This document shows, piece by piece, positions 2,136 to 38,306 of a stretch of DNA of 38,959 nt. Positions within the stretch are counted from its first letter, which is position 1. Every line of letters starts with the position of its first letter. A program made the position numbers and the translations under genes. Where the stretch lies: positions 1 through 38,959 of IMG/VR virus record IMGVR_UViG_3300026097_000047. One strand, 5' to 3'. Below the pieces are notes generated by a model. The model was not told the DNA's origin. It ran no database searches and saw nothing but the letters and a program-made list of their open reading frames with translations. This DNA comes from a virus.

Positions 2136-2137
2136 CA

Positions 2138-18973: not shown

Positions 18974-21900
18974 TTAGAAGAGTTGGAATCCTTGGTCCCA
19001 TTCGTTCCGGCTTTCCTCTAGCACCCTGCGCATGTTGGGGCTGAGTGTTACACCATTATACATAGTGGCCGACGTTTCCATGTGCTGCCGCATTGAACGG
19101 CGCAGCGAGTCGCCGTCGATCCGTGCCGTGCGGTGGCGGTTGTTGAACGCACGGATTTTCTTCATGACGCTGTTGCGCTCATCGTAGTCACCCATGCGAG
19201 TAGCCACATAGTACTGGCGCAGGAGTTTGGTGCGCTTGGAGTTTACCGCGCGGTCAATACCCTTTGTCTGCTGGTTCATCTCCTGCGCACGGGTATACTC
19301 TGCGGGGGCGAAGCCGATTGCTTTCGCAGCCAGCTCACCGAATGACAGATCGTCCATGATAGGGTCACCACGACGCGTCAGGATACCTTCGTCACGTGGG
19401 AAGCGGAACACCGCTTGGTAAGCGTTTCTGAGGCCAGAAGGCATCATTGCCTCGAAGCCCCGCTCGATCTCACCTTGTTTCATGTTGTCGATGCCGCGGA
19501 TAATCGAGGAGATCGTACTCCACGCTGGGCCACCTGCGTAATACAGCAGGCTTTCTTCTGGCGACGGGTCACTGTTGAAGCGGTTAGCTTGTAGGATCAG
19601 ACCGGACAGACCAATACGGCTTGACAGGTCAACACCAAGCAGCGCAGTCAGTGGCCCCTTGTATGCACCTTCGCCGATTGCTTTGCGCACCACTGTCTCA
19701 ACGTCGTCTTCTTCCTCGTCGAAGAACAACAGGTCAATCAACTGCATGATCTCCCGTGCGAACGGTAGGCCGACAGCCCCCGCGAGTACAAACGTCGATC
19801 CAACAACCCCACCTAGCTGACGCAGGGCAACATTGCGCATCTCTTTGTCACCTGCAAAGTGTGCGTCCACACCATCACGCGCTGTTTTAAGTAGCGTGTA
19901 GTACATCTGGATGCCGTAGGTCTTATACATAAGCGCCACACGCCCAACGCCTTGTTGGCTGATACGCGGCGCAGTCTCAAGCACGGAGCCACCGTTCATC
20001 ATCTGCGAGTCATACAGCGCCTGCTCCGCGGCCTTCTCCTGCCGCTCTGTTGTCGACAGTGTAGGCTCTGCAGTTTTCAGGCGTTCTAGTTCCAACTGAT
20101 ATGCGGTCATGGCGGTGACCTGACGGTTGAAGACTTCCGCGTTGTGGAAGAACGTAGCACCCACAGACGACACATAGTCAACTGCACTACGCTTACGCCC
20201 TGACGCGTCAAGCCCAAGGGTATCGGCAATCAGGGAGCGGTTGAGGTGTCCACGCTCTGCCATCAACTGCATGAGCGGTTTGATTTCTTCGACTTCCGCG
20301 CGCATCTCTGGGTCGAGTTCGATGTCCTTGCGGATTACATAATCCCCGTTTGCATCCAGTTCGAAGTAGTTGTCGATGCTTGGCATGGCACGGACTTTAA
20401 CACTCTTCTCGTCGCCGGATGGAGCGATCATGTCACTCTTGCGGTTAAACCCACTGCTCGTAAACAATTTAGTTGCGTTACGAATCGCGCGCCCCGCTGC
20501 GCCATAGCCATGACGCCCGGCCAACATAGGGTACACCACCATAGGAAGTTGTGACGTGTTGACCAACGCCGATGAGACGTTGAAACCCAGTGTGAACAAG
20601 AACGCACCGCGGTTTAGGTTCTGCGCCAACGCATCCTTGGGTGGGTTCCGTGCAAACTCTGCACGGGCGTTGATCTCGTCTAGGATGTACTTGTTCTCTT
20701 CCGTCAGCACATCGCGGTTGTCGTCAACGAGGCTTGCCTCAAGTTCGCGGATTTTGGAACTAAACCGCAGGCGTTCCACCTGCCGACCAAGATCAAACGC
20801 TTTGGTTTTGAAAGCGTCAATGGCGTCTTCTTCGTAGCCCTTTGTGCCTTTACGACGCTGCAGGGCCTTAGCAAAAGATGTTTCAGGCAGTGTCTCTACG
20901 AACAACCGCATGAGTTCTTCTTTGACTTTTGGGTCTACGCCGTTGGCGTCGAGGGTACGCAGCGTCTCTTTTACGAACGAACCTTCAGGTGCCCGTGCAT
21001 AGTTGACGTTGCTGATGTTGACGAACGGCTCTACGTTCTTGACGCCCGTGTCGGCTTTGAGGTCCTTCATCGCACGTTCACGGGCGTTCCGGCTTTGGAA
21101 AGCCTCGACGTAGAACTCTCCGTCCGCTGCCGTGTAGGACAGCCAGTAGTCTCCAGAACGTGTCAGTGGGAAGTACGGCTCGATAGTGCCGGTCTCAAAC
21201 AGACGTGCATACACCTGCTTCTTGAGTTTGTCCCGAGACTCGGCACTAAGTTCTTTGGTGTCGTCCAGCTTGCCGAAGATCACGTCACGCATCTTCAGGT
21301 ACTGTTTCTTGTACGAGTCGCGCATCTGGGCATAGATTTTATCCCCGCCAGTAGCCGACAGCGCACGCCAGTCAGCCTGCATGGACTTCCACGCTTTCAG
21401 CTTCTCAGGGTCATCTTTATACGCACTCGCCGGTTTCGACGGGTCAACCTGCTCGATGGTGCTAGTGTACACCACCGTGTCGAGTGTCTTTACTTTGTCT
21501 TTGTTCGCACGTGCCCAGTTAGACACGCTCTTCAGAGTACCTTCGACCTCTTGGTCTGACTTGTTCATCGCACCACGCTGGCGCTCCATAAGATCGAACA
21601 GGGTGTCGGCACCTTTGATACCCGCCTTCTTCGCAGTGTTCACCACCGAGATCATTGGCAAGCTATAGAGCAAGAACTGCTTGGCCTTCGCAGCGGCGTC
21701 ACCTTTAACAAAGTCTATGACTTGGTCGGCGTGTTCTTGCGCAAACTGTTTCGTGGCTGGTGGCGTGCTATCTACAATATCTTTCAGCATGTCTGCTGCA
21801 CGTTTACCCGCATCGCGGGGCGACAACATAAAGAACTCACCGGTTCCGATGTTGCTTGGTGCGGGGGCGAGAATGTTGTCAATGATACCAGTTGCTTGGT

Positions 21901-24900
21901 CTAGTGCGGACTCCGTGGGTTTCACTGGTTTGCCGATAAGCGTACGCAGGAAGTTGGAAATCGCTGCTTTGAACTTAGCAAAAGGAGTTAGGGGGTCACC
22001 CCCGACGCGTAGCCCGGACAACATCCGTTGGAACTCAGGGTTCGAGAACGCCTCTGCCACAAACTCATTCAGGTCAGTGAACCCATATGCAGTGGGCATG
22101 TGGTCTTTAGTTTCGTCAAAGATTTTCTGCAGCTTGCGCGTCAGCGGGTGGCCCTTCTTAGCCAGTGTCGCAACGGTTGCGGCGTGGGCCATCTCATGCA
22201 GAAGCACGTGAGTGTTGAGGCCGAACTTTGTCGAAAGCGCAATGGTATTTGTATCGGTGTCGAAAACCCCGGCTACTTCGGACCCGTCAGGTGCGCGCAG
22301 TGTACCAGCCAGCTCGACCTTGGTATCACCAACCATCTTGGCCAGCTTGGAAGCCACTGCAGCGACTTCGGGATCGTTGCTTGTAGCCGCCAAAGTGCGC
22401 AGCGCAGCGCCGAGATCACCCTTAGTAAGCATACCAACGACGACATTCGACAGCGGTATGCGCGATGCCGGGACGACCATGTTGAACAAACTGCCGCTGG
22501 CCATGAGGCCACGCACCATCGGGTCAGTCTCGTCGATGCCGAGCTTCTCAAGAACTTCGGCGAGGCGCTTATTGTCTGCATCATTGGTCGGGTCGAACCC
22601 ACCCTCAAACGCCTTCTCCAGCTCGCGGCGCTTGGCGACGAGGTCGGTGGACTCGAAGGCTTCGACCGCCTGCATGGCGTTCTTGGACTCTACAGTCTTA
22701 CCCGCGATCCACCGCTTGGTGGCCTCAGACATGTTCTTGCTGGCCCAATCAAGCACTGCTTGGGCTGTTTTCTTACCGTATCCGGGGATTGTACCTTTTT
22801 CGCCGTCGCCGCCAAGGAACGCGGTCTCGCCGGGGGGCATATCGGGCGTACTCTTAAATCTCCCACGACCCGTAACCACATCGTCGATAGCATCCTGCAG
22901 TCCGAGTGCCGGATCGGGATAGTTACCGAGGTACTTCTTAAGCGCACCGATGGTAGCTTTGTTGGCCTTGGTTGATTTGGTGTTAAGAACTTTTAAGATG
23001 GCAGTCTTGTCAGCAACCGTTAACGGGCTTGTGATTGACATATCCAAGTTCTTGACGAACTGGCGCGCTGCTTGGGAGACATTCGCCTCGTACCGGTCCT
23101 TCAGCTGCTTGGTAACTTGCTCGGTGCTGACTTTCGGCTTATCTGTCGGTGAGATTTTCTCACGCGGTGCCAAGGCACGGGACGTCGGCCCGGCCCGCTC
23201 TTCCGGTACAGGCTTTAGGGTCTGGCGGTCAATGACAGGGCGACGCGGTAGCGTCGGCAACACTCCCCGCTGCGTCGCGCCTTCTAGTGGAGTTCGCTGC
23301 GCGCCTGCTGCTGCTGCAGGACGAGGAGTAGCCTCGTCACGTGCTCCCAATCGTCTGCTTCTAGGTGTCGTAGGCTCTGGGGCACCTGCACCTCGACCAG
23401 CCCCCCGTCCGCCGCCTCCCACGCCGCGTCCACGACTTGGAACGCTTGCTCCAGCTCTCTCTGTGACAGGTGTGCTAGCATCGGGGGTCTCCTGAGCTTC
23501 TGCTGCAGGGCGACCTTGCTCTGTGGGTCTCGACGGAACAGCAGGTTCTGTTGCAAGTGGGGTTGGAGTAGCTGTTGTAGGGGTAGCGGCTGTGGGTCTA
23601 CGTCCGCCACGGCGGGGCGCGAACAGGTCTGGTTGTTCTTCTGGGACCCCTTCGAGGCGGCGGCTAATACCCAATTCTGCAGCTTGAGAAGTGCGCGGCT
23701 GGTTTGCAAAAGAAGTAATAATTTTACGCGTTGTAGGGTCATTTAAGTCCTTACCCAGAAGGCGGCGACGTACAGGCGACTGCGGAGCAATCCCCATTTC
23801 GTCGAGCATAGCACGAGTGACGACTTCCCGAGCTGCGGCGGGTTCGGATGCTTGTGTAGGAGCCTGCTGGACCCGGCGCCGAATCCCCTCCATACCCAAC
23901 TGCTCTGGTTCACGCTGCGCGGGCCGCTCTGGGATGCGTGCCTCCATTTCCTCCAGCTGCGTAGCCTCTGGGGGTGAGGTAACAGTCGGCGTAGCTTCGG
24001 GTTCAGGGCGCTCGGCCCGCTGCACATTCACCGCACGCTCGATGGACTGTAGTTCAGCCTGTGTGGGGGCGGTGTCGGCGATACCCTGTGCGGCCAATGC
24101 GTCGCTAAACGCGCGGCCTACACGATTGTAGTTCCGGCTGGGTGTTTTCTCGATAGTATCTTGTAAGATCTTAGTACGCGTAGCTTCAGTGGCCTTGCGA
24201 CGCCGGGTATCTTCCTGCCCACTGATCGTCTCGATGTCTGACTCTGCACGAAGGGCCTGAGCCTGTTGCTGCTGCGCGGCTTCTTCGGCTTCAATAGCGG
24301 CGAGCTGGTCGGCGATGTCTGCGTCTTCACGTGCGGTTTGCTCACGCTGCTGCGCTAGGTCTACGAGGTCACGCTCACGTACGGTCGCAGGTTCTTGTGG
24401 TGTGCCTTCCGCCGGACGCTCTGGAGTAGCAGGTTGTTCGCCCACACGACGGCGCTCTTGCTCTTGCTGCAATGCAAACAAGTCAGGTTGTTCAAACGCG
24501 GCTTCGTCACCCCGCCCTGCGGCACGCAGTGCTTCACGTTCGCGGGCGGCTGCCTGTGCGCGGGCTTCTTCTTCGGGGATTGTGGCTTGCTCTAGCTCAC
24601 GGATCATATCCCGCTGCTCAGGCTCTGGCGCACGTTCGGGGCGCTGGTCGAACAGGTTCAGCTGCCGGTCGTCAGGCCGCTCTGGTGCTCTACCCAAGTC
24701 TTCCTCGGGGAACATCTCACGTTGGTCGCCCATAACTCGCGTGGGGGCTTGCCCAAGGTCTTCGCCTTCAAACAACTCACCCTGCTCTGGCTCTTCTGGA
24801 GTAGTGGCTCCGCGCGACCGCCGACCTACGAGGGCGTCAACGAGGACTTGGATGGTTGCACCGGCCCCACCGCCGAGAGCTGCGGCTTCGCCTGCACCTT

Positions 24901-25750
24901 CAAGCACTGCTTGGTCGATGTTGTATCCACGCTCGATAAGGTTCTGTGCGATACCCGCCGCTGCTTCCTGCGCGGCCTCTTCACCACCAGTGCGCAGTGC
25001 GCTAACTACTCGCTGACGCATACCCTGCACGACCTCTCCGCCGAGATCGCCAGTGAGCTTGCCAAGGACGCGACGTAGCGGCAGCGCTTCTGTAGAGCCG
25101 ACCACCGCACCGAGCCGTGCCGCCCGATTACGCTCTTCTTGAGTGGCGCCAGCTGCGCGGGCACGTTCACTTGCTTCGCCTGCGCCTGCACCTACACCGA
25201 GAGCACTTGCACCGAGCAAACCTGCTATGCCTGCGGCACCCGCCCCTGCACCAAGAGCACCCGCCCCGGCAGTAACAGCTGCACCGGCGCCGATAAACCC
25301 AGCGATAGAGCCGAAGGTCTGCCCAATTTTATATGTAAGGTCGTCCTCGTCACCCCGGTCGGGGCGAACTCTATCCGCAAGTCCTTGAATACGCTCACGT
25401 GCGGCAAGTTCTTTCTCTTCGTCCAGCAGTGTAGCGGCACCCAGTGCCGCAGTCTCGCCAATACCAACAACACCCGCACCGAAACCACCGACTAAGTCGC
25501 CGATAAACCCACTCTCATCGGGTTCGTCAAACATAGCCTCATAGGCTGCACGTTTAGCTGCGACGTCTTCTTGGGCTGCCCGGATACGCCCTTCGCGTGC
25601 GGCAAGACGGTCTCCGTACGGGGTACCCTCATACTGCTGACGACGTGCTTGTTGAGACGCGGCACGGGCAAGGTCTTCTCTGGAGGCCCCTTCGGGTGCT
25701 TCAACGTCGAGTGTAGAACCATCCCGCAGCGTGAGAGTGTATAGGGCCAT
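18974..25750 (-). CDS. Giant virion protein with zincin motif, probably injected with DNA (2258 aa)
   Basis: A 2258-residue protein, last in the late operon. The N terminus (T-L-R-D-G-S-T-L-D-V-E-A-P-E-G-A) is followed by Gly/Ala-rich hydrophobic stretches (about 65-190), which could insert in membranes. Residues about 300-880 are disordered, rich in Glu, Arg, Gln and Pro, with several short Q-x-x-(L/M)-F-like motifs. At 1185-1189 is L-L-H-E-M-A-H, a zincin metallopeptidase signature, with a possible third ligand at Glu1229 or Glu1233. The C-terminal 950 residues are helical and resemble polyvalent-protein/ejection-protein regions. It likely enters the host with the DNA. AAGGTGA precedes ATG 25750. 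Activity is unproven. Confidence 0.75.
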   Translation of the reverse strand: MALYTLTLRDGSTLDVEAPEGASREDLARAASQQARRQQYEGTPYGDRLAAREGRIRAAQEDVAAKRAAYEAMFDEPDESGFIGDLVGGFGAGVVGIGETAALGAATLLDEEKELAARERIQGLADRVRPDRGDEDDLTYKIGQTFGSIAGFIGAGAAVTAGAGALGAGAGAAGIAGLLGASALGVGAGAGEASERARAAGATQEERNRAARLGAVVGSTEALPLRRVLGKLTGDLGGEVVQGMRQRVVSALRTGGEEAAQEAAAGIAQNLIERGYNIDQAVLEGAGEAAALGGGAGATIQVLVDALVGRRSRGATTPEEPEQGELFEGEDLGQAPTRVMGDQREMFPEEDLGRAPERPDDRQLNLFDQRPERAPEPEQRDMIRELEQATIPEEEARAQAAAREREALRAAGRGDEAAFEQPDLFALQQEQERRRVGEQPATPERPAEGTPQEPATVRERDLVDLAQQREQTAREDADIADQLAAIEAEEAAQQQQAQALRAESDIETISGQEDTRRRKATEATRTKILQDTIEKTPSRNYNRVGRAFSDALAAQGIADTAPTQAELQSIERAVNVQRAERPEPEATPTVTSPPEATQLEEMEARIPERPAQREPEQLGMEGIRRRVQQAPTQASEPAAAREVVTRAMLDEMGIAPQSPVRRRLLGKDLNDPTTRKIITSFANQPRTSQAAELGISRRLEGVPEEQPDLFAPRRGGRRPTAATPTTATPTPLATEPAVPSRPTEQGRPAAEAQETPDASTPVTERAGASVPSRGRGVGGGGRGAGRGAGAPEPTTPRSRRLGARDEATPRPAAAAGAQRTPLEGATQRGVLPTLPRRPVIDRQTLKPVPEERAGPTSRALAPREKISPTDKPKVSTEQVTKQLKDRYEANVSQAARQFVKNLDMSITSPLTVADKTAILKVLNTKSTKANKATIGALKKYLGNYPDPALGLQDAIDDVVTGRGRFKSTPDMPPGETAFLGGDGEKGTIPGYGKKTAQAVLDWASKNMSEATKRWIAGKTVESKNAMQAVEAFESTDLVAKRRELEKAFEGGFDPTNDADNKRLAEVLEKLGIDETDPMVRGLMASGSLFNMVVPASRIPLSNVVVGMLTKGDLGAALRTLAATSNDPEVAAVASKLAKMVGDTKVELAGTLRAPDGSEVAGVFDTDTNTIALSTKFGLNTHVLLHEMAHAATVATLAKKGHPLTRKLQKIFDETKDHMPTAYGFTDLNEFVAEAFSNPEFQRMLSGLRVGGDPLTPFAKFKAAISNFLRTLIGKPVKPTESALDQATGIIDNILAPAPSNIGTGEFFMLSPRDAGKRAADMLKDIVDSTPPATKQFAQEHADQVIDFVKGDAAAKAKQFLLYSLPMISVVNTAKKAGIKGADTLFDLMERQRGAMNKSDQEVEGTLKSVSNWARANKDKVKTLDTVVYTSTIEQVDPSKPASAYKDDPEKLKAWKSMQADWRALSATGGDKIYAQMRDSYKKQYLKMRDVIFGKLDDTKELSAESRDKLKKQVYARLFETGTIEPYFPLTRSGDYWLSYTAADGEFYVEAFQSRNARERAMKDLKADTGVKNVEPFVNISNVNYARAPEGSFVKETLRTLDANGVDPKVKEELMRLFVETLPETSFAKALQRRKGTKGYEEDAIDAFKTKAFDLGRQVERLRFSSKIRELEASLVDDNRDVLTEENKYILDEINARAEFARNPPKDALAQNLNRGAFLFTLGFNVSSALVNTSQLPMVVYPMLAGRHGYGAAGRAIRNATKLFTSSGFNRKSDMIAPSGDEKSVKVRAMPSIDNYFELDANGDYVIRKDIELDPEMRAEVEEIKPLMQLMAERGHLNRSLIADTLGLDASGRKRSAVDYVSSVGATFFHNAEVFNRQVTAMTAYQLELERLKTAEPTLSTTERQEKAAEQALYDSQMMNGGSVLETAPRISQQGVGRVALMYKTYGIQMYYTLLKTARDGVDAHFAGDKEMRNVALRQLGGVVGSTFVLAGAVGLPFAREIMQLIDLLFFDEEEDDVETVVRKAIGEGAYKGPLTALLGVDLSSRIGLSGLILQANRFNSDPSPEESLLYYAGGPAWSTISSIIRGIDNMKQGEIERGFEAMMPSGLRNAYQAVFRFPRDEGILTRRGDPIMDDLSFGELAAKAIGFAPAEYTRAQEMNQQTKGIDRAVNSKRTKLLRQYYVATRMGDYDERNSVMKKIRAFNNRHRTARIDGDSLRRSMRQHMETSATMYNGVTLSPNMRRVLEESRNEWDQGFQLF

Positions 25751-28578: not shown

Positions 28579-29508
28579 TTACGCCCTCATCCCCGGCATG
28601 TACTGCGCCGGGTTAATCTGTTTGCCTTGCTTGGGGTTACCCGTGCGCGCTTTCCGAACGTTGTCCATCATCGCGTACAGCTGCATAACACCAGCGTTAG
28701 AGTTGCCGTTACCGAGGTGACTTACAACATCGGCGGGGATTACAAACTCTCCGTCGGAGAGTCGGGCCTCTTGCTGCCCATCAATGTTCGCAGGGACTTT
28801 ATCAGCCATGCCATCGGTGGCGCCGTCGAGGTAGCGCCCACCTGCTAAGTTAGCAATGCCGCCTTGGGCGTATTGTGGGACGAACCCAGATAGCCCCTGC
28901 GTCTGTGTCTCGACTGGCATATTTTGAATGACATTAGCGGGGGCACGAGAAACGATTGGGGAGGTGTTACCTGTGGGCTGCGCCGCAAACTGCAGGGGTG
29001 TAGGGCGGGTTTGCATCGCGGGGTTGGCGACGTTTTGCCCTCGGAGATACTCGGCCTGCTTACCCGCAAGTTGACGCACGATATCAAGCGCCGCCAAACC
29101 CTCTTCGCTAGGGTCTTGAGAGACAACTTCTGTAGCAGTTGTATCCGCGGTGTCTGTGGCGGCGTCCGCTTCTGCTACCGTGTCGCCAGCTGCGTCGTTA
29201 GCAACCGCCGTTTCGAGGGGGGCGTACGGGTCTACATACTGCGTATCGGTGAAGTACCGCTGCCCGCTGCTACCGGGGCGACGGTTAGGATCGTAGGTAT
29301 CAGCTACACGTTCGCGCACCGCCGTGTACCGGGGGACGCTACCTTGATACCCAGTTTGAGGGGCATCGCTGTTAGCAAAACCGGAATTGCTCAAGAAGTA
29401 ACTACCCGCAAGGCTACCAACACCCTGCCAGTTTACGCTGCCAAGCACATCGTTGAAGTTAGTGTCACCACCACCCAACCAGTCCAGAGTGTTGCTCCAA
29501 AAACTCAT
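28579..29508 (-). CDS. Virion-associated protein with C-terminal Gly-Gly motif domain (309 aa)
   Basis: A 309-residue protein. The first 190 residues are low-complexity, Ala/Asp/Thr-rich and contain an acidic stretch. The C-terminal 100 residues form a more conserved-looking domain: Y-A-Q-G-G-I-A-N-L-A, G-R-Y-L-D-G, M-A-D-K-V-P-A-N-I-D-G-Q and L-S-D-G-E-F-V-I-P-A-D-V-V-S-H-L-G. From memory this domain is common in phage virion loci but has no firm function. The ATG overlaps the previous gene's stop (ATGA), and AGGGGAAAAC lies upstream. Confidence 0.65.
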   Translation of the reverse strand: MSFWSNTLDWLGGGDTNFNDVLGSVNWQGVGSLAGSYFLSNSGFANSDAPQTGYQGSVPRYTAVRERVADTYDPNRRPGSSGQRYFTDTQYVDPYAPLETAVANDAAGDTVAEADAATDTADTTATEVVSQDPSEEGLAALDIVRQLAGKQAEYLRGQNVANPAMQTRPTPLQFAAQPTGNTSPIVSRAPANVIQNMPVETQTQGLSGFVPQYAQGGIANLAGGRYLDGATDGMADKVPANIDGQQEARLSDGEFVIPADVVSHLGNGNSNAGVMQLYAMMDNVRKARTGNPKQGKQINPAQYMPGMRA

Positions 29509-32500
29509 CCGTTTTCCCCTATAATAAGTAAGATTTTATCAGTTAAGTCCCCTACTTGTCCACCCTTAGCATAGGGGCGCACGAAAAGCTCCTCCTGCTC
29601 AGGCGTAGCAAAGATACTGCTGAAGTCGTAGAGGTACTCTAACTCCAGCGGGTCAGGCGTTTCGACGTCAACACGTTGCCCCTCCAAATCAGTCTGTGCT
29701 CGCAGGGTACGCGCAAAATCAGATACGTTACGGCGCTGCTGCTGTATTTGGATTTGCTGCTGTATTTGGATTTGCTGCTGTATTTGCTGCTCTTGCTGCT
29801 GCTGAATATCTAGTTGGTTTTGTGCGATCTCCGCCAAAACTTCTGCATAGGGGTCTGTCTCCGCCGTCTCGTCTACGGTCTCGTCGATTATAGTGTCTAC
29901 GTCGTCTACGGTCTCATCGACTACGTCGACTACGTCGTCTGCAGGTTGGTCAACTACTTCATCGACTACGTCGTCTACAGGCTGGTCAACTACCTCATCG
30001 ACTACATCGTCTGCAGGCTGGTCAACTACTTCATCGACTACGTCGTCTACAGGCTGGTCAACTACTTCATCGACTACGTCGTCTGCAGGCTGGTCAACTA
30101 CTTCATCGACTACGTCGTCTGCAGGCTGGTCAACTACTTCATCGACTACGTCGTCTGCAGGCTGGTCAACTACCTCATCGACTACGTCGTCTGCAGGCTG
30201 GTCAACTACCTCATCGACTACGTCGTCTACAGGCTGGTCAACTACCTCATCGACTACGTCGTCTACAGGCTGGTCAACTACTTCATCGACTACGTCGTCT
30301 ACGGTCTCGTCGGGTGTATATTCGGTTATGTAGTCGTCATACCAGTTCGTATTAGAATCTACGTCGTCTGCGGGTTCGTCAACTACCTCATCGACTACGT
30401 CGTCTGCGGGTTCGTCAACTACGTCGTCTGCGGGTTCGTCAACTACTTCATCGACTACGTCGTCTGCAGGTTGGTCAACTACCTCATCGACTTCATCGAC
30501 TTCATCGACTACGTCGTCTGCGGGTTCGTCAACTACCTCATCGACTACGTCGTCTGCAGGCTGGTCAACTACCTCATCGACTACGTCGTCTGCAGGCTGG
30601 TCAACTACCTCATCGACTACGTCGTCTGCAGGCTGGTCAACTACCTCATCGACTACGTCGTCTGCGGGTTGGTCAACTACCTCATCGACTACGTCGTCTG
30701 CAGGCTGGATTATGCGTTCGTCGTACGTGTCACCTGCGTCGTAATCGTATACTTTGCCATACGGAGTAGTAAGCGTGCCGTCGCCGTTGTCGCTCCACCC
30801 CTGCGTACTAATGAGAAGACGTTCTATGGGGTTTATGCCAATGGCGGTATCTACATACTGGCGAGCATCCCGCGAAACTTTGTCCACGTCTTGCTGTCTT
30901 ACAAACTGTGCTACCTCTTCGTCAGTTGGGTCATACCCCATGTCGGCAAACAGTTGGCGGGCTTCATCTTCAGTTACTTGGTTTACGTCAACAAACTGCG
31001 ACAGTTCGTCGAGAATGTCGTTTTCTGCGCCTTGCCGAGTAAACTGCTCGACTTGTTCATCGGTAGGGTCGAAGCCTTGAGCTTGGAACGCCTCACGTAC
31101 TTCCTGCTCGTTGGTAGCCAAGGAGTCAAACTGAGATACAAGATATTCTGTGGCTGCGCTCTTGTCCTCAACACGACCTGCACGCTCGAATATCTCTTCG
31201 TCGCTTAGTTCTAGCCCCTCTGCCTCTGCGTACGCGCGGACTTCGGTTGGGCTGATATAGCGAGATTCAACATAAGTATTGACGTAGGTAGTGACGTCTT
31301 CTCCGGCGCTGTTAAGCACCAAGTTTACGAGTTCTTTGTCAGTTGTAGCAAAGCCGGGGTACTTGGCGAGTTCGTTCATCACCTGCCCGGTGCTGTTGTA
31401 GCTATCGTCGACGGTGCTTAGTAGGTTATTGCGCAAGTTCTCATACGCCGGTCCTTCCGCAAACTCAGTGCCTTCTACAACGCCATCTAAGTAATCAGTC
31501 AAAGCCGTTACGGCTAGCCGGGCGCGCAGGAGTTCAAACCCCGGTTTTTTCGCCTCGTTAATAATCTCATTTGCACGGGGGTCAGTACGAATAATAAGGT
31601 CTGCCAATGTAGAGCCTGTGTATATACCTCCCGCAGTGCCTGCGCCAGCAATCGACCCGAGAGCTGCAGCCTGTGCGACAGTGCCGAGCACGTCGCGGTC
31701 AGGGTCAACTTGCTTCAACACCGTTTCAACAAAGAGTGTGGGTAGACCTTCCTCGATAGACTCCTGTACACCTTCATTCCAAGACACCCGCGCACCGGTG
31801 CTAATCTTTTCTGTGAGCCAGTCGAACGCTTCCGCGGTTGTACCCGCCGAGTCTTTGCCCAAGAACACTTTTTCAAAGTCGTTACCGCCTATGCCGAAGC
31901 TAGCGAGGGTAGTAGCTGCGCTTATGAGGCCCGCGGACTGTGCTAGCTCCATGGCGGCTGCTTTAGCCTCTTCCTCCGACATACCTGCAGCAAGATAAGT
32001 GGCCAGACCCTCGTTGTACGCACTGTCTGCCGCACCGCCGAAAGACTCGGCAAGGTCGAGCGCAGACGAGGTACCGATGCCGACACGCTGTGCGGCTCGA
32101 TCCGACAGTTCTTTACCCATGGCACGGAAGATTCCTTTGGCGCCGACCATGGTGCCCTTAGAGGCAAGAAGCCACGGCAGTTCTTGGATAATCTCCGCCC
32201 CAATAAGTTCGGCGACAAACTGCTCAGGAGCTTCTTGGAACGCGCCCCAAATACTGCCTAGTTTTTCCCACCCTTCGCCTTCCGCGAGCTTCGCGTCAAT
32301 CCGGTCGAGCGCCTCCGCCCATTCTTCAGTCTGTAGCCCCGCACCGAAGTCGATAACGTCGTCAGCAAACTGGCCGACGGGGTTGGAGTTTGGGTCAAAC
32401 CCAAGCGTAATATCCACGAACGCGGTCATGGTGCCGAGCAGTTCACCACCCGCTTTTGCTATTAGCCCGCCGTAGTCTCTAGCGTTATCAACGCCCACCA

Positions 32501-34817
32501 ACGTATCAATAAGCTCAGTTCCGGTTTCTGCCCCTATGCGTTTTGCCGCATCAAAATAACCGGCTTCATCCCACTTGTTGAGAAAATCAACAACATCCTG
32601 ACCAACCCGCGATGCAAGAACAGCTTGGCCCGCCTCGTTTAAACCCGCACCGATCTGTGCCCACGTCCCAGCGTCGGATTCTCTGAGGTCGTCATACGTC
32701 GGGAGTGGTGTAATTTCGATCTGCAGATTGTCTGACAGGCGTTCACCGGTAAGGGCGCTCACCTCCACATATTCGCCGCTATTCAGCCCACCTTCAACAG
32801 GTACGCGTTTGACCAAAGTGTTGAACTGGGGACTCCAATACGGGGTCTCGTAAGTTACCTTGCCCCACTCCAAAAGCCCATCTTGCCGAACCCTTAAACC
32901 CGCTTCGCCCAGAGCAATTTCTTCGTCAGTAACATCTGCCCGCGAAGTGTTTACCAAGTCGTTTTGTGCCTGTCCGGTATACGTTCTTTCTAGTGCGTCG
33001 ATGTCAGACTGGATTAGCGGCTCGCCTTCGATAAAATCTGTCACCCCCGCACGGTTGAGGAGGTCAGCGATTGGCGCGTCGATAGTAGGCGCCACGCCTG
33101 ACTCAAACGCCCTCTTGATAGAGTTGACCGTACTAAGATTAAGCACGGGCGCCCCAACGCCACTAGCCACAAAGTCTTCCGCAATCTCAGCAAGCCCAGT
33201 ATTACGTAGTGCGGTTATATCTCCTCCGGCGCTATCCTCCACCAAATCAACGAGGACCTGACGCTGTACATCATTCAGCTGTGTTAAATCTACCCCAAGA
33301 TATTCTGCGGCGCTGTTTAGTACACCTTGAAACTTCGCACTGTACTCTTCGTTGTACGCCGCTTGGTTGGTAGGCAAGCCCTGCGCTTTGCCTTCAGTCA
33401 GCCAGTGGAAGTACGCATCTTCGTCTGCGTCGAGTCCCGCAATGCGACGGTATTCTGCCTCGTTGAAGTTCGGGTCCATAAACTGCACAAAAGATTTGTC
33501 CAGCTCATTATAGAGGGGCGTCAGCTCCTCGTCAGCTAGCTCGACGGCGGTGGTCAGGTCTGCTTGCAGGACCGTAAATTCGGATTGCGCCTTGTTATAG
33601 TCTGCCTCCAACTTTGGCAGCTCCGCATCAATACGCTCTAGCTCCGCACGGAGGGCGGGGTACTCTTCGTTAAACGGTTTGGATACCGCGTTGTACGCAG
33701 CTACAGCCTTTTCCAACGCTATCGCGTTTTCTTCTGACTCGTTGGCTTCGAAGTTCTGCAGGGCGAGGTCGTACGCGGCTTCGAGTTTGGTTAACCGCTC
33801 TCCCGTGGCGTTTATTTGCCCAGCAATTTCGTTACGCCGCGCAAGGCGCCCGTTGTACGCTTGGACCTTGTCTTCTAGTTCTCTGGCTTTTGCTTCTACC
33901 CGTTGGTAGTCGCCAGTCAACTTGTCCATAGTTTGGGTGACAGCCACACCCGCGGCAGTGGTGTTGAACCAGTCTTTAAATTCTGTGTTGGCGTAGTTGT
34001 TTAGGCTTTCCGCAAGCGCTCCCTCGATGTCACCTCCACCGAATGCCGCTGAGGCTGTACGCTGCACGGCTGAAGTAATCGCCGCAATCTCCCCATCAGC
34101 AAAGTCGGTAGCATCGCCAACAAAGTCTTTAACTACCTTGGTTACAGATTCGGCTTTTAGCGCGGCATTGAGAACAGACTCTGGAGTGACATCTTGCCCA
34201 GATAAAGTACGCGCGATAGAAGAAGTAATGACATTCTTGGCGACATCGGGTAGGGCATCGAACATGCCACTTGTTTGCTCGTCAATGTAGCCATTTATTG
34301 CGGGTAGCGCCGCACTAATACCACCAGTAACGAAGGCTTGCACGGGGTCCTGCCCGTAAACAATAGCGCGCGCCGCGGCACCAGACCCAGTACCGACCGC
34401 CGTGGCAATAACCGCATTCCCAGTAGCCTCAAGTGCGAAGTCACCAGCAAGCTCACCAGCAACATCGCCTACACCCTGCGCCACATAAGAAACAGCGGCG
34501 GCTTTGAGGGCGTCTCCGAGGTCGCCACCTTGAGCTAATGTGCCTGCCCCTTCAATCAGAGGCACAGCCCATGTTTGCCCAGTAGCTATCGCAGCTATTT
34601 TTAGTACCGCTTGCCCTATCTCAGACTCGAATACGTCAACGACAAGGTCACCGACAGGCTTTACGATCTCTTCGTATACCCAATCAGCCGCACCGGTGGT
34701 GTGCGAGAGGACAGCTGCACCAGTACCAATGACGACAGCGGCGCCAACCGCGGCGCCCACGCCTACGGCGGCTGCTCCTGCTCCGACCCCTATAGCTACG
34801 GGTATAAGTACTGGCAT
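29505..34817 (-). CDS. Giant virion protein with acidic 12-residue repeats (1770 aa)
   Basis: A 1770-residue protein. The N terminus (about 3-40) is Ala/Gly/Val-rich and membrane-like. Residues about 290-440 form a coiled coil (many E/A/L/K heptads). Around 460-500 is a segment F-H-W-L-T-E-G-K-A-Q-G-L. Hydrophobic Gly/Ala helices lie near 1040-1140. Then come three degenerate repeats with G-(Y/F/L)-x-(P/L)-(T/S)-D-E-(E/Q). Residues about 1367-1645 are acidic 12-mers (D-D-V-V-D-E-V-V-D-Q-P-A). A Gln-rich helix and a C-terminal Y-A-K-G-G-Q-V follow. It is likely an internal/ejected virion or tape-measure-like protein; this is inferred from size, composition and operon place. Confidence 0.65.
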   Translation of the reverse strand: MPVLIPVAIGVGAGAAAVGVGAAVGAAVVIGTGAAVLSHTTGAADWVYEEIVKPVGDLVVDVFESEIGQAVLKIAAIATGQTWAVPLIEGAGTLAQGGDLGDALKAAAVSYVAQGVGDVAGELAGDFALEATGNAVIATAVGTGSGAAARAIVYGQDPVQAFVTGGISAALPAINGYIDEQTSGMFDALPDVAKNVITSSIARTLSGQDVTPESVLNAALKAESVTKVVKDFVGDATDFADGEIAAITSAVQRTASAAFGGGDIEGALAESLNNYANTEFKDWFNTTAAGVAVTQTMDKLTGDYQRVEAKARELEDKVQAYNGRLARRNEIAGQINATGERLTKLEAAYDLALQNFEANESEENAIALEKAVAAYNAVSKPFNEEYPALRAELERIDAELPKLEADYNKAQSEFTVLQADLTTAVELADEELTPLYNELDKSFVQFMDPNFNEAEYRRIAGLDADEDAYFHWLTEGKAQGLPTNQAAYNEEYSAKFQGVLNSAAEYLGVDLTQLNDVQRQVLVDLVEDSAGGDITALRNTGLAEIAEDFVASGVGAPVLNLSTVNSIKRAFESGVAPTIDAPIADLLNRAGVTDFIEGEPLIQSDIDALERTYTGQAQNDLVNTSRADVTDEEIALGEAGLRVRQDGLLEWGKVTYETPYWSPQFNTLVKRVPVEGGLNSGEYVEVSALTGERLSDNLQIEITPLPTYDDLRESDAGTWAQIGAGLNEAGQAVLASRVGQDVVDFLNKWDEAGYFDAAKRIGAETGTELIDTLVGVDNARDYGGLIAKAGGELLGTMTAFVDITLGFDPNSNPVGQFADDVIDFGAGLQTEEWAEALDRIDAKLAEGEGWEKLGSIWGAFQEAPEQFVAELIGAEIIQELPWLLASKGTMVGAKGIFRAMGKELSDRAAQRVGIGTSSALDLAESFGGAADSAYNEGLATYLAAGMSEEEAKAAAMELAQSAGLISAATTLASFGIGGNDFEKVFLGKDSAGTTAEAFDWLTEKISTGARVSWNEGVQESIEEGLPTLFVETVLKQVDPDRDVLGTVAQAAALGSIAGAGTAGGIYTGSTLADLIIRTDPRANEIINEAKKPGFELLRARLAVTALTDYLDGVVEGTEFAEGPAYENLRNNLLSTVDDSYNSTGQVMNELAKYPGFATTDKELVNLVLNSAGEDVTTYVNTYVESRYISPTEVRAYAEAEGLELSDEEIFERAGRVEDKSAATEYLVSQFDSLATNEQEVREAFQAQGFDPTDEQVEQFTRQGAENDILDELSQFVDVNQVTEDEARQLFADMGYDPTDEEVAQFVRQQDVDKVSRDARQYVDTAIGINPIERLLISTQGWSDNGDGTLTTPYGKVYDYDAGDTYDERIIQPADDVVDEVVDQPADDVVDEVVDQPADDVVDEVVDQPADDVVDEVVDQPADDVVDEVVDEPADDVVDEVDEVDEVVDQPADDVVDEVVDEPADDVVDEPADDVVDEVVDEPADDVDSNTNWYDDYITEYTPDETVDDVVDEVVDQPVDDVVDEVVDQPVDDVVDEVVDQPADDVVDEVVDQPADDVVDEVVDQPADDVVDEVVDQPADDVVDEVVDQPVDDVVDEVVDQPADDVVDEVVDQPVDDVVDEVVDQPADDVVDVVDETVDDVDTIIDETVDETAETDPYAEVLAEIAQNQLDIQQQQEQQIQQQIQIQQQIQIQQQRRNVSDFARTLRAQTDLEGQRVDVETPDPLELEYLYDFSSIFATPEQEELFVRPYAKGGQVGDLTDKILLIIGENG
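29743..29804 (-). repeat. Short Gln/Ile-coding tandem repeat
   Basis: About three copies of an 18-base unit (CTGCTGTATTTGGATTTG on the + strand), followed by CTGCTG-rich sequence. On the coding strand it gives Q-I-Q-I-Q-Q and a Gln run near the end of the giant protein. Slippage-prone; probably a flexible helix. Confidence 0.75.
29884..30717 (-). repeat. 36-bp minisatellite coding acidic 12-residue repeats
   Basis: Around twenty 36-base units code D-D-V-V-D-E-V-V-D-(Q/E)-P-(A/V). They fall in two blocks (about 29884-30311 and 30361-30717) split by a unique segment coding N-T-N-W-Y-D-D-Y. Units in the block nearer the C terminus are almost identical in DNA, suggesting recent expansion or gene conversion; the other block has more Glu/Gln changes and a shortened unit. 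The opposite strand is also open for 464 codons, only because of the period-12 codon pattern. Confidence 0.9.
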
Positions 34818-35291
34818 TTAGAGCCTCCAGAACTCGTCTAGCGAGTCTTTACCAATTTTAATGAACGCTCGGTATCCACCGGTATCTAACCGTACCACAT
34901 CTATTTCGGTATCAGTATCCTTTGTTTTGTTATACCAAAACTGAAACGCTGACAAATACTCTTCTGCGTTGAAGTCTGTACGATAAAATTCGACTTTTTT
35001 CTTCTGTAAGTAGGCTAGGTACTTCAGACCGTTGCGTACAAAATTTTGCGCCGTGTCGAGGTTAAGCGCCCGCCCCTCCATCACATTCTTGTACTTGCCT
35101 TTGCCGCGGTGCCCTATGAACACCGTATTGCCAATCTGCACTTGGTCAGTGTTAGGCAGAGACAACTCACCCGCAAGCGCCGCGATTACCTTACCCACAG
35201 GCTGGTCTGTGTTGTTTAGCTCCGCCGCTGCGGTCATAATGATTTCAGGAGCCGGTAGGGGCGTCTGTTTGCTGTCTACAACGGTAACCAT
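34818..35291 (-). CDS. Unknown protein (157 aa) downstream of the ACP gene
   Basis: A 157-residue protein of mixed alpha/beta character. It contains G-N-T-V-F-I-G-H-R-G-K-G, L-N-L-D-T-A-Q-N-F-V-R-N-G-L-K-Y and, near the end, G-G-Y-R-A-F-I-K-I-G-K-D-S-L. The fold cannot be named; some residues recall GNAT-like acyltransferases, which would fit an acyl carrier neighbour, but I see no clear acetyl-CoA site. ATG overlaps the ACP gene stop (TAATG), so the two are probably co-translated. It lies between the ACP and a giant virion protein. Confidence 0.6.
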   Translation of the reverse strand: MVTVVDSKQTPLPAPEIIMTAAAELNNTDQPVGKVIAALAGELSLPNTDQVQIGNTVFIGHRGKGKYKNVMEGRALNLDTAQNFVRNGLKYLAYLQKKKVEFYRTDFNAEEYLSAFQFWYNKTKDTDTEIDVVRLDTGGYRAFIKIGKDSLDEFWRL

Positions 35292-35572
35292 TATGCGGCC
35301 TCCATAACTTCTTCTATTGACTGCACGTCTTTTGTCTTGTGCTGGTTGACGTAGTCTCGCACCGTACCGACCGTGAACTTGTTCACGTTATCGAACTCCA
35401 AATCGTTCGGGATGCCGTACGCATCGGTCAAAACCGCAAGCACCATAATCATGTCTAGGCTGTCTATGCCGAGGTCTACCGGCTCTTCATCGTAGCTTGT
35501 TGCGTCTTTGGCGTTGTCTCCACGAGACACAGCAGCTTTCGCTGCGGCATTAAATACATCTAAAAAGTTCAT
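35291..35572 (-). CDS. Acyl carrier protein-like protein
   Basis: A 93-residue protein with the acyl carrier signature D-L-G-I-D-S38-L-D-M, where Ser38 is the expected 4'-phosphopantetheine attachment site. It is followed by helix II (I-M-V-L-A-V-L-T-D-A-Y-G-I) and F-T-V-G-T-V-R-D-Y-V, matching helix IV of ACPs. Length and acidity fit the family. No fatty-acid or polyketide enzyme is nearby; the neighbours are virion genes. It would need the host's phosphopantetheinyl transferase. Possible roles are lipid or virion-protein acylation or diversion of host fatty-acid synthesis; none is shown. GGGGGAGAGACT lies before the ATG. Confidence 0.8.
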   Translation of the reverse strand: MNFLDVFNAAAKAAVSRGDNAKDATSYDEEPVDLGIDSLDMIMVLAVLTDAYGIPNDLEFDNVNKFTVGTVRDYVNQHKTKDVQSIEEVMEAA

Positions 35573-35583
35573 AGTCTCTCCCC

Positions 35584-36207
35584 CTACAAGTTGCTGACAA
35601 ACGATACAGCCACAATGGTCGAGGGTATACCGGGGTGCAAGCTAGTAGCTGCTTCAGTGTAGAGCGACAGGGTAGTGTCAGAAGTCGCCCAGTACATCTC
35701 AATGTAATCGTTTGCCAGTAGGTCGATAGAGAAGTTCCAGTACAGTGCACGGGTAGCGTTACCTTTCACCGTCTGCACCTGCCCGCCGTACGGCACGTCG
35801 GTGCCACTCTTGTTGATCCACGTTGTTACGGTGACGTCCGACGAATTTGTATGCGCAGTCTGCATAGTGACTTGGAAGTTGTAGACCCCGTCTGCCGACA
35901 CAGTAATCCGCGTGTCATCTGCACCGGCAATCGAAACACCGTTACCGATATAGGTGTTCTCGAACTCTACTGGATAGCCAGTATCCACTGCTGCTGCTGT
36001 CTGATTAGCGGTGCTGTAGAATAAGCCACGAGGCATGTATAGAAACTTGCCGCCGTCGTCGGTACTCAATAGCGCGCCTAGAGTAGACGTAAGCCGGTTG
36101 AAGAACAGCCGAAAGACGTTGTCCTTCTGGTCCATATACGGGCGGTTGTAGTCCGCCGTGGGTAGCGGAATCGCTGGTGGCTCTGGACGATCTATCTGGT
36201 TAGCCAT
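35584..36207 (-). CDS. Virion protein with jelly-roll-like (C1q/TNF-like) domain
   Basis: A 207-residue protein. The N-terminal 50 residues (P-Y-M-D-Q-K-D-N-V-F-R-L-F-F-N-R-L) look like an attachment helix. The rest is beta-rich, with T-V-S-A-D-G-V-Y-N-F-Q-V-T-M-Q and N-D-Y-I-E-M-Y-W-A-T-S-D spacing typical of C1q/TNF-like jelly rolls found in phage receptor-binding or head decoration proteins. This is a judgement from strand pattern, not proof. The start overlaps the previous gene's stop (TAATG). Confidence 0.6.
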   Translation of the reverse strand: MANQIDRPEPPAIPLPTADYNRPYMDQKDNVFRLFFNRLTSTLGALLSTDDGGKFLYMPRGLFYSTANQTAAAVDTGYPVEFENTYIGNGVSIAGADDTRITVSADGVYNFQVTMQTAHTNSSDVTVTTWINKSGTDVPYGGQVQTVKGNATRALYWNFSIDLLANDYIEMYWATSDTTLSLYTEAATSLHPGIPSTIVAVSFVSNL

Positions 36208-38087
36208 TACCGCCTCCCGTCAGGGCGGATGTCTATTCTCGGTGTGCCCAACTGCCACTGCACCCCTAGTGCGTTGGACTCGATCTTTACTGCCAGCTGC
36301 CGCCCCCGCACGCGGGTGTTTATCTGCCCAGTGTACTGCTCAATAGGCAAAGTGGCCGTGCGAGTCACCGCTGCGTTGTTTACGCCGCCTTCTGACGTAG
36401 GGCTATTGTATCCAGAACCGGAGTTAGCCAGCGGCAAGAGAGTCATAGTAGCTGCAGGGGCGTCAGAAGTAGACCCCGTGAATGTCATATCCGGCAGCAC
36501 CCGCCAGATAAACGAGAACCTGTCGCCGCTATCAATGTCAAACTGCGTAGATGTGATGTACGCGTCTATAGGCACGGGGGTAGCAGTTTCGGCGTCGTCT
36601 AGCCCAACTTCATGGGACACCAAGTTATTGCTGTATGTGGCAGCTACCGGGCTAGAGACTAAATCTGAATCCAGCCATGCAGTGCGGCCCATAGTGCCGT
36701 AGTACCAGATGTTCTGTACATAGTTATACACAACGTACCGGTCGATTGTAGTGGAGTCAGCGGAACAGTAGAACCACCATACCTCGTTATACTGTTCGTT
36801 AGTGCCCGCGTGCACCTGTTGGTACTGCTGCTCGTTAAAGTCGTTGAACACATAACGCTTTACCGCGCATGGGAGTGGCTGTATGCGACCGTCATATATA
36901 TAAAACTTACCAAGCCCCATCCAGAACGATATGCCCGCCGCGTACGCGGTAGCATTTTGCGATGCGATAGAGATATTGGCACCCAGAAGTTGCGTGGTCC
37001 ATACACCACCACCCGCGCCGACATATTGCATAGAGTAGACCGCAGTGTCAGTCCAAACTAGAATTTCCTGCCGCGACTGCAGCGCCGTAACGATTTCGCT
37101 ACCCTTAGAAAGCCGGATGCTGCCAGATTGGTTTGTTGCTGAAGGCGTCCAATTCGTCACATCTTCTTGGTCAGACCAACGTACCAGTAGTGGGTCTTGT
37201 GTAGAACCACCAAGTTCGTTCGCCCCAAAGCAGAACACAAACCGGCTGACGTCTGATACAAGCACATAGTTCTGTACTGTGGGTACGTTAGACGCGCCCC
37301 CCAGCGAGGAAACAAGTACAGCACGGTTGCCTGTACCCGCAGAAGTATCCCAATAGTAGAGCGCGCCCCCACGAGGGCCGAATACAAGGTCCTCACCAAA
37401 ATTACCCTGACTCCACAGGCGTATGGCCTCTAAGTCCGTGGCGTCAGACCCTCCGAAACCCCATGCACCCGTACTCCAAGTAGATGCACCCCACCCACTT
37501 ATAGGTTCAGCGAACTCTGGTCCCGGACTAATCTGATACGCACCTACCGTAGACGCGCCGCCGCCCCCCGTGTCAGAAGCGTTCGCAGTGGCAGTGGCAG
37601 TTATTGTGAATGTGTCTGCGGTAGGTACAGTTACGACTTGGTACTCTTGGTTTAGCACATCGGCGGTAATGTTACCCCCGAGAGAGACCGCACCACTGAA
37701 CGTAACGAAGTCTCCTACATCGGCACCATGCGCGGTATCTGATACTGTGATCGTGGCACTGCCGTCCGTCGCGGAAAAGGTCACATCCCCTGCAGCGGTA
37801 GTCACACGGAGCGGCGTGATGTCGTAATACGCGCCACCTCTATCTATGTAGTATTTGAGGTTTGTGCCTACTGACGTGTACGTCTCTTGGTCTAGCCCTA
37901 CCCATGCCGATAGCGCGCGACATACCCCTTGAAACGTACGGTTTGAAACCCGCGCCCAACCACCAATTTTCTCGGGTAACCCGTCCCGGAACCGAACTTT
38001 GTCCATGTCATACCACCCGCCTTCCGCGGTGTAGGACGTAACTTCTCGGTTGATACCCGGTTTGAATTTTAGCTGCTGGAGAGGCAT
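36207..38087 (-). CDS. Virion connector/stabilisation protein, P22 gp10-like type (626 aa)
   Basis: A 626-residue beta-rich protein. The start L-K-F-K-P-G-I-N-R-E-V-T-S-Y and G-G-W-Y-D-M-D-K-V-R-F-R-D-G-L-P-E-K are typical of a widespread podovirus-like virion family related in pattern to P22 gp10 (tail stabilisation/hub). An insertion of about 90 residues (approx. 95-185) carries Gly/Thr/Ala-rich repeats such as G-D-F-V-T-F-S-G-A, an Ig-like or carbohydrate-contact decoration. The rest has W-x-D-x-A-V-Y-S and W-W-F-Y patterns. It probably forms part of the tail-head junction. Confidence 0.65.
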   Translation of the reverse strand: MPLQQLKFKPGINREVTSYTAEGGWYDMDKVRFRDGLPEKIGGWARVSNRTFQGVCRALSAWVGLDQETYTSVGTNLKYYIDRGGAYYDITPLRVTTAAGDVTFSATDGSATITVSDTAHGADVGDFVTFSGAVSLGGNITADVLNQEYQVVTVPTADTFTITATATANASDTGGGGASTVGAYQISPGPEFAEPISGWGASTWSTGAWGFGGSDATDLEAIRLWSQGNFGEDLVFGPRGGALYYWDTSAGTGNRAVLVSSLGGASNVPTVQNYVLVSDVSRFVFCFGANELGGSTQDPLLVRWSDQEDVTNWTPSATNQSGSIRLSKGSEIVTALQSRQEILVWTDTAVYSMQYVGAGGGVWTTQLLGANISIASQNATAYAAGISFWMGLGKFYIYDGRIQPLPCAVKRYVFNDFNEQQYQQVHAGTNEQYNEVWWFYCSADSTTIDRYVVYNYVQNIWYYGTMGRTAWLDSDLVSSPVAATYSNNLVSHEVGLDDAETATPVPIDAYITSTQFDIDSGDRFSFIWRVLPDMTFTGSTSDAPAATMTLLPLANSGSGYNSPTSEGGVNNAAVTRTATLPIEQYTGQINTRVRGRQLAVKIESNALGVQWQLGTPRIDIRPDGRR

Positions 38088-38096
38088 GGTCGTATC

Positions 38097-38306
38097 CTAC
38101 ATGGAGGCGCCGGAAAGCGGCACTGAAGTGACCGAAATTTGTACACTCTGCTTTAGCTCAAGCGCAGCGCCGCAATCCGTGCACGTGTCAGCCGCAATCT
38201 CGCCTTCGTCTAAGTCATACCCACAGTTTTGACACACGACCTCAACGGTATGTGCACTGCGAATGATGCCAGTACCTAGTGTTTCGGCGTCGAAGGTCTG
38301 TTTCAT
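38097..38306 (-). CDS. Small zinc-ribbon protein (69 aa)
   Basis: A 69-residue protein with two C-x-x-C pairs (C-Q-N-C-G and C-T-D-C-G) 13 residues apart, a classic zinc ribbon. The N terminus has T-G-I-I-R-S-A-H-T-V-E-V-V. A hydrophilic tail follows. Zinc ribbons of this size in virion blocks may bind nucleic acid or serve as assembly adaptors; no partner is evident. GAGGTAAGAT precedes ATG 38306. Confidence 0.7.
   Translation of the reverse strand: MKQTFDAETLGTGIIRSAHTVEVVCQNCGYDLDEGEIAADTCTDCGAALELKQSVQISVTSVPLSGASM

Follow-up and report, generated by a model that had tools for sequence, protein, structure and literature searches.

The gene X and its place in the late operon

The DNA considered here, referred to as the window, is the complete stretch of 38,959 nucleotides held in the IMG/VR virus record IMGVR_UViG_3300026097_000047. 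Towards one end it carries, on the minus strand, a small gene, here called X, which sits between the gene for an acyl carrier protein (ACP) and a very long open reading frame (ORF), and which is proposed to encode an acyl-ACP-dependent acyltransferase. The features of this region, by their positions in the window, are as follows.

29505-34817, minus strand: ORF of 1770 amino acids that begins right after the X stop codon, the proposed acceptor; no PHROG match at 1e-3
34158-34817, minus strand: first 220 codons of that ORF, an N-terminal domain common to 104 of the 110 distinct ORFs found after X
34818-35291, minus strand: X, 157 amino acids, ATG start, with a predicted GNAT fold and no named family
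35043-35063, minus strand: X residues 77-83 at the junction of strand 4 and helix 3, with N77, D79, T80 and N83 invariant in 50 aligned members
35289-35293, minus strand: TAATG, in which the ACP stop codon and the X start codon share one base
35291-35572, minus strand: ACP, 93 amino acids, with a DSL serine and profile matches to ACPs
35459-35461, minus strand: codon of ACP Ser38 within GIDSLD, the 4'-phosphopantetheine site expected by analogy
35584-36207, minus strand: ORF of 207 amino acids preceding the ACP gene, with a weak BclA_C match below cut-off
36207-38087, minus strand: virion structural protein of 626 amino acids (phrog_3287), relatives of which are annotated as stabilization protein

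Is so short an ORF a gene at all? Four relatives at 93-94% identity and two more at 76% and 73% emerged from an initial scan, and a profile search raised the number of relatives to 208. Comparison with the X of locus L002 (loci bearing relatives are numbered from L001) gives a dN/dS of 0.038 at a dS of 0.73, indicative of strong purifying selection; because relatives exist and this ratio is low, X can be taken as a genuine gene and not as a chance ORF. The ACP gene behaves in much the same way in the comparison with L002 (dN/dS 0.062, dS 0.84), its dS being saturated in the comparison with L009 and L010. Among the INPHARED phage records one credible match to X was found, in MW202545 (L001), and when viral contigs were scanned with the X of L001 alone, 0 of 19 candidates were confirmed. 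The X profile also confirmed no relatives among 48 pattern matches in genome contigs, a search made with two narrow patterns, and there is thus weak evidence that the family is confined to phages.

The ACP stop codon and the X start codon share an A, the final base of the one and the first of the other. A sequence-only reading of this DNA had noted that the start of X overlaps the ACP stop and had concluded that the two proteins are probably made in equal amounts. The overlap is real, and amounts to a single base, but equal amounts cannot be read from it; such tight junctions are ordinary in the late operon, where 4 of the 10 junctions between the 11 ORFs chosen lie at -4 to 0 nt, including that between X and the next gene at 0 nt.

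Several other parts of the window deserve a brief description. A protein of 69 amino acids with two CxxC motifs (38097-38306, minus strand) is encoded just before the stabilization protein and has counterparts in L006, L007 and L011. At the opposite end, positions 1-250 form a simple-sequence-like stretch with glycine-rich and arginine-rich repeats in several frames. The plus strand carries an ORF for an AAA-type ATPase (310-1449, with an AAA_16 match below cut-off) and one for a DUF2201 metallopeptidase/VWA-like protein (2102-3379, with both DUF2201 parts above cut-off), a pairing reminiscent of MoxR-VWA systems. Finally, an ORF of 2258 amino acids (18974-25750, minus strand) contains an LPD39 (large polyvalent protein) domain together with a C-terminal match to phrog_10089, which is DarB-like antirestriction.

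The predicted fold and the putative donor site of X

The structure predicted for X from 49 sequences has a mean pLDDT of 94.9 and a pTM of 0.88. Its elements run as helices 14-24 and 32-43, strands 48-53, 56-62 and 70-77, helix 81-97, strand 102-107, helix 111-122 and strands 129-134 and 140-145, an order that in the predicted model corresponds to the a1-a2-b2-b3-b4-a3-b5-a4-b6-b7 arrangement of the GNAT fold. A Foldseek search of the PDB returns nine matches at E <= 0.001, whose titles are those of acetyltransferases and of the acyl-homoserine-lactone synthase BjaI; MesI is also among the PDB fold matches, as are chains of RNase E with E values of 1.2e-3 to 1.7e-3. With VIA-align the top position is taken by RimI (2cnm; Z 10.9, rmsd 2.9, 123 residues aligned) in a ranking headed by protein and small-molecule acetyltransferases, and of 1000 chains compared, 366 reach a Z of 8. 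Among the 50 VIA-align matches listed there is neither an HlyC-type nor a FeeM entry, which is no argument against kinship with either. In BFVD the nearest structures belong to unnamed phage proteins, the best being A0A6J7WZS3 (E 1.7e-13, 25% identity). The predicted structure therefore supports GNAT acyltransferases as the nearest solved folds. The mixed alpha/beta pattern, which had been said to recall acyltransferases loosely, does so at the level of the predicted fold, and the structure prediction and fold search that had been suggested as a check point to an acyl-group type of enzyme, GNAT.

Searches with the sequence give no such placement. X has no convincing match in Pfam, PHROGs, NCBIfam or the sequences of the PDB, and its relatives find nothing convincing in Pfam, PHROGs or PDB sequences. 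The Pfam GNAT (Acetyltransf) families are matched by 0 of 50 X members at E <= 1. For the toxin-activating acyltransferase family (HlyC/CdiC) there is no match in Pfam at E <= 1 (50 members) or among PDB sequences at E <= 10, and for LuxI and FeeM there is none in Pfam at E <= 1, in NCBIfam at E <= 0.1 (with the X of the window) or among PDB sequences at E <= 10. PF11090, which is the T7 gp13 family, and phrog_308 both match T7 gp13 itself and are both absent from the matches listed for X.

A number of weak matches were considered as possible identities for X, including AvrPtoB-E3 (0.084), TraH_2 (0.013, in one of two members), phrog_28036 (0.0097), RpoD (0.038) and similar. All were set aside as chance matches on the grounds that they are partial, have E values near 0.01-0.1 and involve few members. 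A role as a malonyl-ACP decarboxylase, brought to mind by the GNAT domain of MadA, was likewise dropped; in MadA it is the hot-dog domain that acts as decarboxylase, not the GNAT one (PMC8666670).

The region of X that would hold the donor is of particular interest. In the GNAT enzymes that use CoA the pyrophosphate is bound by a Q/R-x-x-G-x-G/A loop, which lies between strand 4 and helix 3. In the predicted model of the window X this loop is reduced to three residues, 78-80. Among 102 distinct X proteins of at least 130 amino acids the pattern is found anywhere in the sequence in six and between strand 4 and helix 3 in none, the nearest instance being that in L208, which falls within strand 4. 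The junction is nonetheless kept. N77, D79, T80 and N83 belong to 12 columns that are invariant across the 50 aligned proteins (drawn from 61 distinct X after partial sequences, near-copies, two stop-containing references, L083 and, by way of precaution, L086 had been dropped). The pattern N.DT..N is present in 93 of the 102 distinct proteins, with the first N replaced by T in seven of the nine others, and a conserved histidine, H61 in the window, follows TVFxx by the strict pattern in 69 of the 102. A donor site that is kept but altered suggests one that would suit 4'-phosphopantetheine as donor, without the nucleotide part of CoA. The same alteration could also mean that the enzyme is dead and that its site has been retained for binding.

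ACP, KAS and the large protein encoded after X

What keeps company with X? The window ACP on its own lies below the Pfam cut-off (17.9 vs 20.8 bits), the ACP of L016 lies above it (22.8) and the ACP of L001 has no match in Pfam or NCBIfam. A profile built from 10 relatives finds 43 PDB sequences at E <= 0.01, and these are named as ACPs or mitochondrial ACP subunits. The serine that is expected to carry the prosthetic group is present, as DSL[DE], in 71 of 71 loci, near-identical loci included. The second companion, a beta-ketoacyl-ACP synthase (KAS), is encoded in relatives only, with no KAS match in the window. All three of the KAS proteins scanned pass the cut-offs of both PF00109 and PF02801; KAS is far below the FabF equivalog cut-off, and its profile finds 92 PDB sequences at E <= 1e-5. 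The Cys motif, HGTGT and K-x3-GH are all intact in 55 of 55 loci, again with near-identical loci counted. The median net charges of X and ACP, at +4.5 and -15 respectively, would suit binding between the two, although they prove nothing.

The three genes are commonly found as a cassette. MW202545, with an X relative at 30% identity, has an ACP-like ORF and KAS upstream of it. Within the X profile set, comprising 80 IMG/VR contigs (the best 80 of 208), 54 have the order ACP-KAS-X, 15 have ACP-X and 11 have X alone; the full tally of 55, 16 and 11 additionally counts L001 and L005, the latter being a second copy of the L010 contig. X alone signifies that ACP and KAS are absent from the stretch fetched, and not from the whole genome; in the eight of these 11 contigs that were inspected X stands at its usual place. 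Approached from KAS (best 80 of 353), 78 loci have ACP before and X after, with the remaining two ending one base past the KAS match, and 38 of the 65 loci L095-L159 carry KAS DNA that is absent from the X-set loci. Approached from ACP (best 80 of 193), 48 loci have ACP-KAS-X, 17 have ACP-X and 15 end at a contig edge, at most 34 bases after KAS or, in L193, after ACP; L207, which belongs to this set, carries KAS. In the best 80 of each set, neither ACP nor KAS is seen without X where the contig extends far enough. Since only the best 80 were retained from the 208 X, 353 KAS and 193 ACP matches, these tallies represent the closer members of each family.

A tree of 103 distinct X proteins (80 from ACP-KAS-X loci, 15 from ACP-X loci and eight from loci with X alone) requires at least 10 changes of state, compared to a mean of 22.1 when the states are shuffled, and places the X of L011, which has no ACP, as sister to that of L016, which has one. 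ACP and KAS are gained or lost while X stays, and ACP is not needed for the retention of X, given both this sister pair and the 11 of 80 contigs in which ACP is lacking. The ACP-X pair of the window is a reduced form of the ACP-KAS-X cassette, and on the tree, which is rooted by midpoint only, KAS was likely lost in the window's lineage. The two-gene acylation system that the sequence-only reading had envisaged is thus right about the strong link between X and ACP and falls short in that the usual state is one of three genes, KAS included. Similarly, the co-occurrence that it had suggested looking for holds in one direction: among the loci kept, ACP is always with X where this can be seen, but X is found without ACP.

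Individual loci show variations on this arrangement. In L005 (7201-8474) an endolysin-like ORF lies immediately before ACP-X, and the fibre-like and stabilization genes found upstream in the window are missing there. In L063 (1890-2742) an ACP of the KAS-associated type is followed by a gap of 73 bases and then X, with no KAS found, which looks like a recent loss of KAS. In L031 (242-2111) the ACP and KAS frames are fragmented, either from decay or from sequencing error.

Can the phage make an acyl chain by itself? A pathway search was made in 27 records, consisting of the window, MW202545 and 25 IMG/VR contigs of more than 34 kb, which may be incomplete. The KAS family is present in 18 of the 27, as a single copy in each, and the corresponding control search found KAS in 14 of 14 genomes. 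A FabG-type reductase is matched in 0 of the 27 records (controls 13 of 14 genomes), and a phosphopantetheinyl transferase likewise in 0 of 27 (controls 10 of 14). Loading of the ACP would then fall to the host, and KAS, acting with no reductase, would yield a 3-oxoacyl chain.

Of the neighbours of X, the gene that follows it is the most constant, more so than ACP. In 180 of 180 rows, repeated contigs included, an ORF starts at -4 to +4 nt from the X stop; the rows represent the window and 179 of the 203 X-bearing loci, the other 24 having less than 330 nt after X, and the ORF taken was the longest that starts at -20 to +120 nt. With two profile rounds, 104 of the 110 distinct ORFs prove to be recognisably related over their N-terminal 220 residues (91 in the first round), and the domain is predicted with low confidence to be helical (mean pLDDT 60.5). 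The ORFs range from 155 to 1999 amino acids as printed, some being clipped by contig ends. A few have weak matches to tape-measure proteins and some have endolysin matches. From its location among late genes the downstream ORF is presumed to be a virion or ejection protein. No lysine that could act as acceptor is invariant, the best two columns having K in 76% and 67%. Within the ORF of the window there is a long run of acidic repeats at about 29820-30830, of the type DVVDEVVDQPAD.

The role of X

What might a GNAT-fold protein do between an ACP and a large late protein? The reading favoured here, with a probability of roughly 0.48 and so just short of even odds, is that X serves in the late operon as an acyltransferase whose donor is acyl-ACP and not CoA, and that its acceptor is a protein, most plausibly the one encoded next. 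In the common cassette the phage would supply its own ACP and KAS, with KAS extending the acyl chain on the ACP. In the lineage of the window, with ACP and without KAS, the ACP would be loaded by host enzymes, and in relatives that also lack ACP X would use a donor from the host. By way of X the acyl group would then pass from ACP to a protein amine, most plausibly one in the large protein encoded immediately after X, and the acylated protein would perhaps be better at binding or entering the host envelope. In its favour are the predicted fold, the missing CoA loop motif beside a conserved cluster, the linkage of X with ACP and KAS and their intact motifs, the fixed gene after X and the purifying selection; the enzyme activity, the donor, the acceptor and the purpose are inferred. 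Against this reading stand the 11 of 80 contigs in which X has no ACP, and the failure of X to match any acyl-ACP enzyme family by sequence. The chance that the altered site is a dead one, the lack of an invariant acceptor lysine, the figure of 69 of 102 for H61, the RNase E fold matches and the absence of a PHROG match for the downstream protein weigh on the same side. A more specific version, in which the phage's own line of acyl transfer places a fatty or 3-oxo-fatty chain on the next-encoded large protein so that it may anchor in or cross the envelope, as a step in virion maturation, is rather unlikely as a whole.

There are known enzymes with which such an activity can be compared. Toxin-activating acyltransferases have a GNAT-like fold. 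Like HlyC, CyaC and CdiC, X is a small gene with an acyltransferase fold that adjoins the gene for a large protein; it differs from them in having no Pfam match to acyltransferase families and in belonging to the late operon of a phage, which supplies an ACP of its own and, in relatives, KAS. In this enzyme family, HlyC/CdiC, acyl-ACP is the donor; CdiC attaches an acyl group to a lysine of CdiA, encoded next to it, and helps to kill target cells, employing a catalytic dyad of H37 and D107 (PMC8510554). Residues of X that might correspond to this dyad are D79, which is invariant in the 50, and the His after TVFxx (69 of 102).

Could X instead have no catalytic role? The main rival reading, possible though rather unlikely, is that X is an assembly factor with a GNAT fold, a positional counterpart of T7 gp13, which would fold or place the large proteins encoded downstream, with ACP as a bound partner and KAS as an accessory. 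By place the two would be alike. T7 gp13, which Pfam describes as a probable scaffold protein, is encoded directly before gene 14, ahead of internal virion genes, and X lies directly before the large ORF, presumed from its place to encode a virion protein. The GNAT protein pc40 of roseophage SIO1, whose gene adjoins those of internal virion proteins, has been compared with gp13 in print and linked to morphogenesis (PMC6775973). Of seven further phage records, retrieved through their stabilization protein, three contain an acetyltransferase-annotated gene after it: gp35 of CRP-902, which precedes a hypothetical protein; UOF80320 of ct7L0027, which comes directly before 'internal virion protein D'; and gp16 of Octadecabacter DB virus 2, which precedes a hypothetical protein and has no Pfam match. 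The retention of X without ACP and KAS and the absence of the CoA loop motif would also fit a protein that has no catalysis to perform. On the other side, no acetyltransferase is annotated at this position in the remaining four records (DSL-LC04, HTVC027P, HTVC023P and Pag-Yong1), and hhalign does not relate X to T7 gp13 or the annotated GNATs of CRP-902 and ct7L0027, a weak comparison since these three were entered as single sequences. Moreover, T7, CRP-902, ct7L0027 and DB virus 2 differ from the X loci in having no neighbouring ACP or KAS annotated, and an assembly factor leaves unexplained why ACP and KAS with intact motifs should accompany X.

LuxI-type and FeeM enzymes have the GNAT fold, which raises the improbable alternative that X makes a small N-acyl molecule from acyl- or beta-ketoacyl-ACP, for use as a signal, surfactant or membrane-active compound. 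BjaI and MesI are indeed among the PDB fold matches of X, and KAS without a reductase (27 records searched, 0 with a FabG-type match) would offer 3-oxoacyl chains. Acyl-ACP is the substrate of LuxI-type and FeeM enzymes (PMC4897644 for part of this), and such an activity would account for ACP and KAS. X has no LuxI or FeeM sequence match, its VIA-align ranking has protein and small-molecule acetyltransferases at its head, and the fixed large-protein gene after X, a further difference from LuxI and FeeM, would go unexplained.

That ACP and KAS are metabolic genes which aid lipid synthesis in the host, with X a mere neighbour, is very improbable and the least likely of these readings because ACP and KAS are not seen apart from X, which always follows them where the contig permits (in the sets kept, best 80 each), and the absence of FabG-type and phosphopantetheinyl transferase matches from all 27 records also speaks against it, even though three Rhodobacteraceae prophages carry acpP, fabF and fabG together and these are discussed as fatty acid synthesis genes (PMC8224337).

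Those prophages resemble the cassette in that ACP and KAS II-type genes occur in phage genomes, and differ from it in their order, fabG-acpP-fabF, and in having the FabG-type gene; the available text of PMC8224337 mentions no X-like protein. What is already known are GNAT-type genes beside internal virion proteins and acpP, fabF and fabG in prophages (the latter in PMC8224337), whereas a search of open-licence PMC papers brought up no description of an ACP-KAS-GNAT cassette in phages. When ACP and KAS genes occur in phages they have been listed as metabolic genes of lipid synthesis (PMC8224337). Their fixed position beside a GNAT-fold protein and one large-protein gene points instead to an acylation module of the late operon. 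If X does modify the protein encoded downstream, acylation would join the known routes by which phages prepare proteins for entry, and a function would be suggested for the unexplained GNAT and gp13-type genes that adjoin internal virion proteins.
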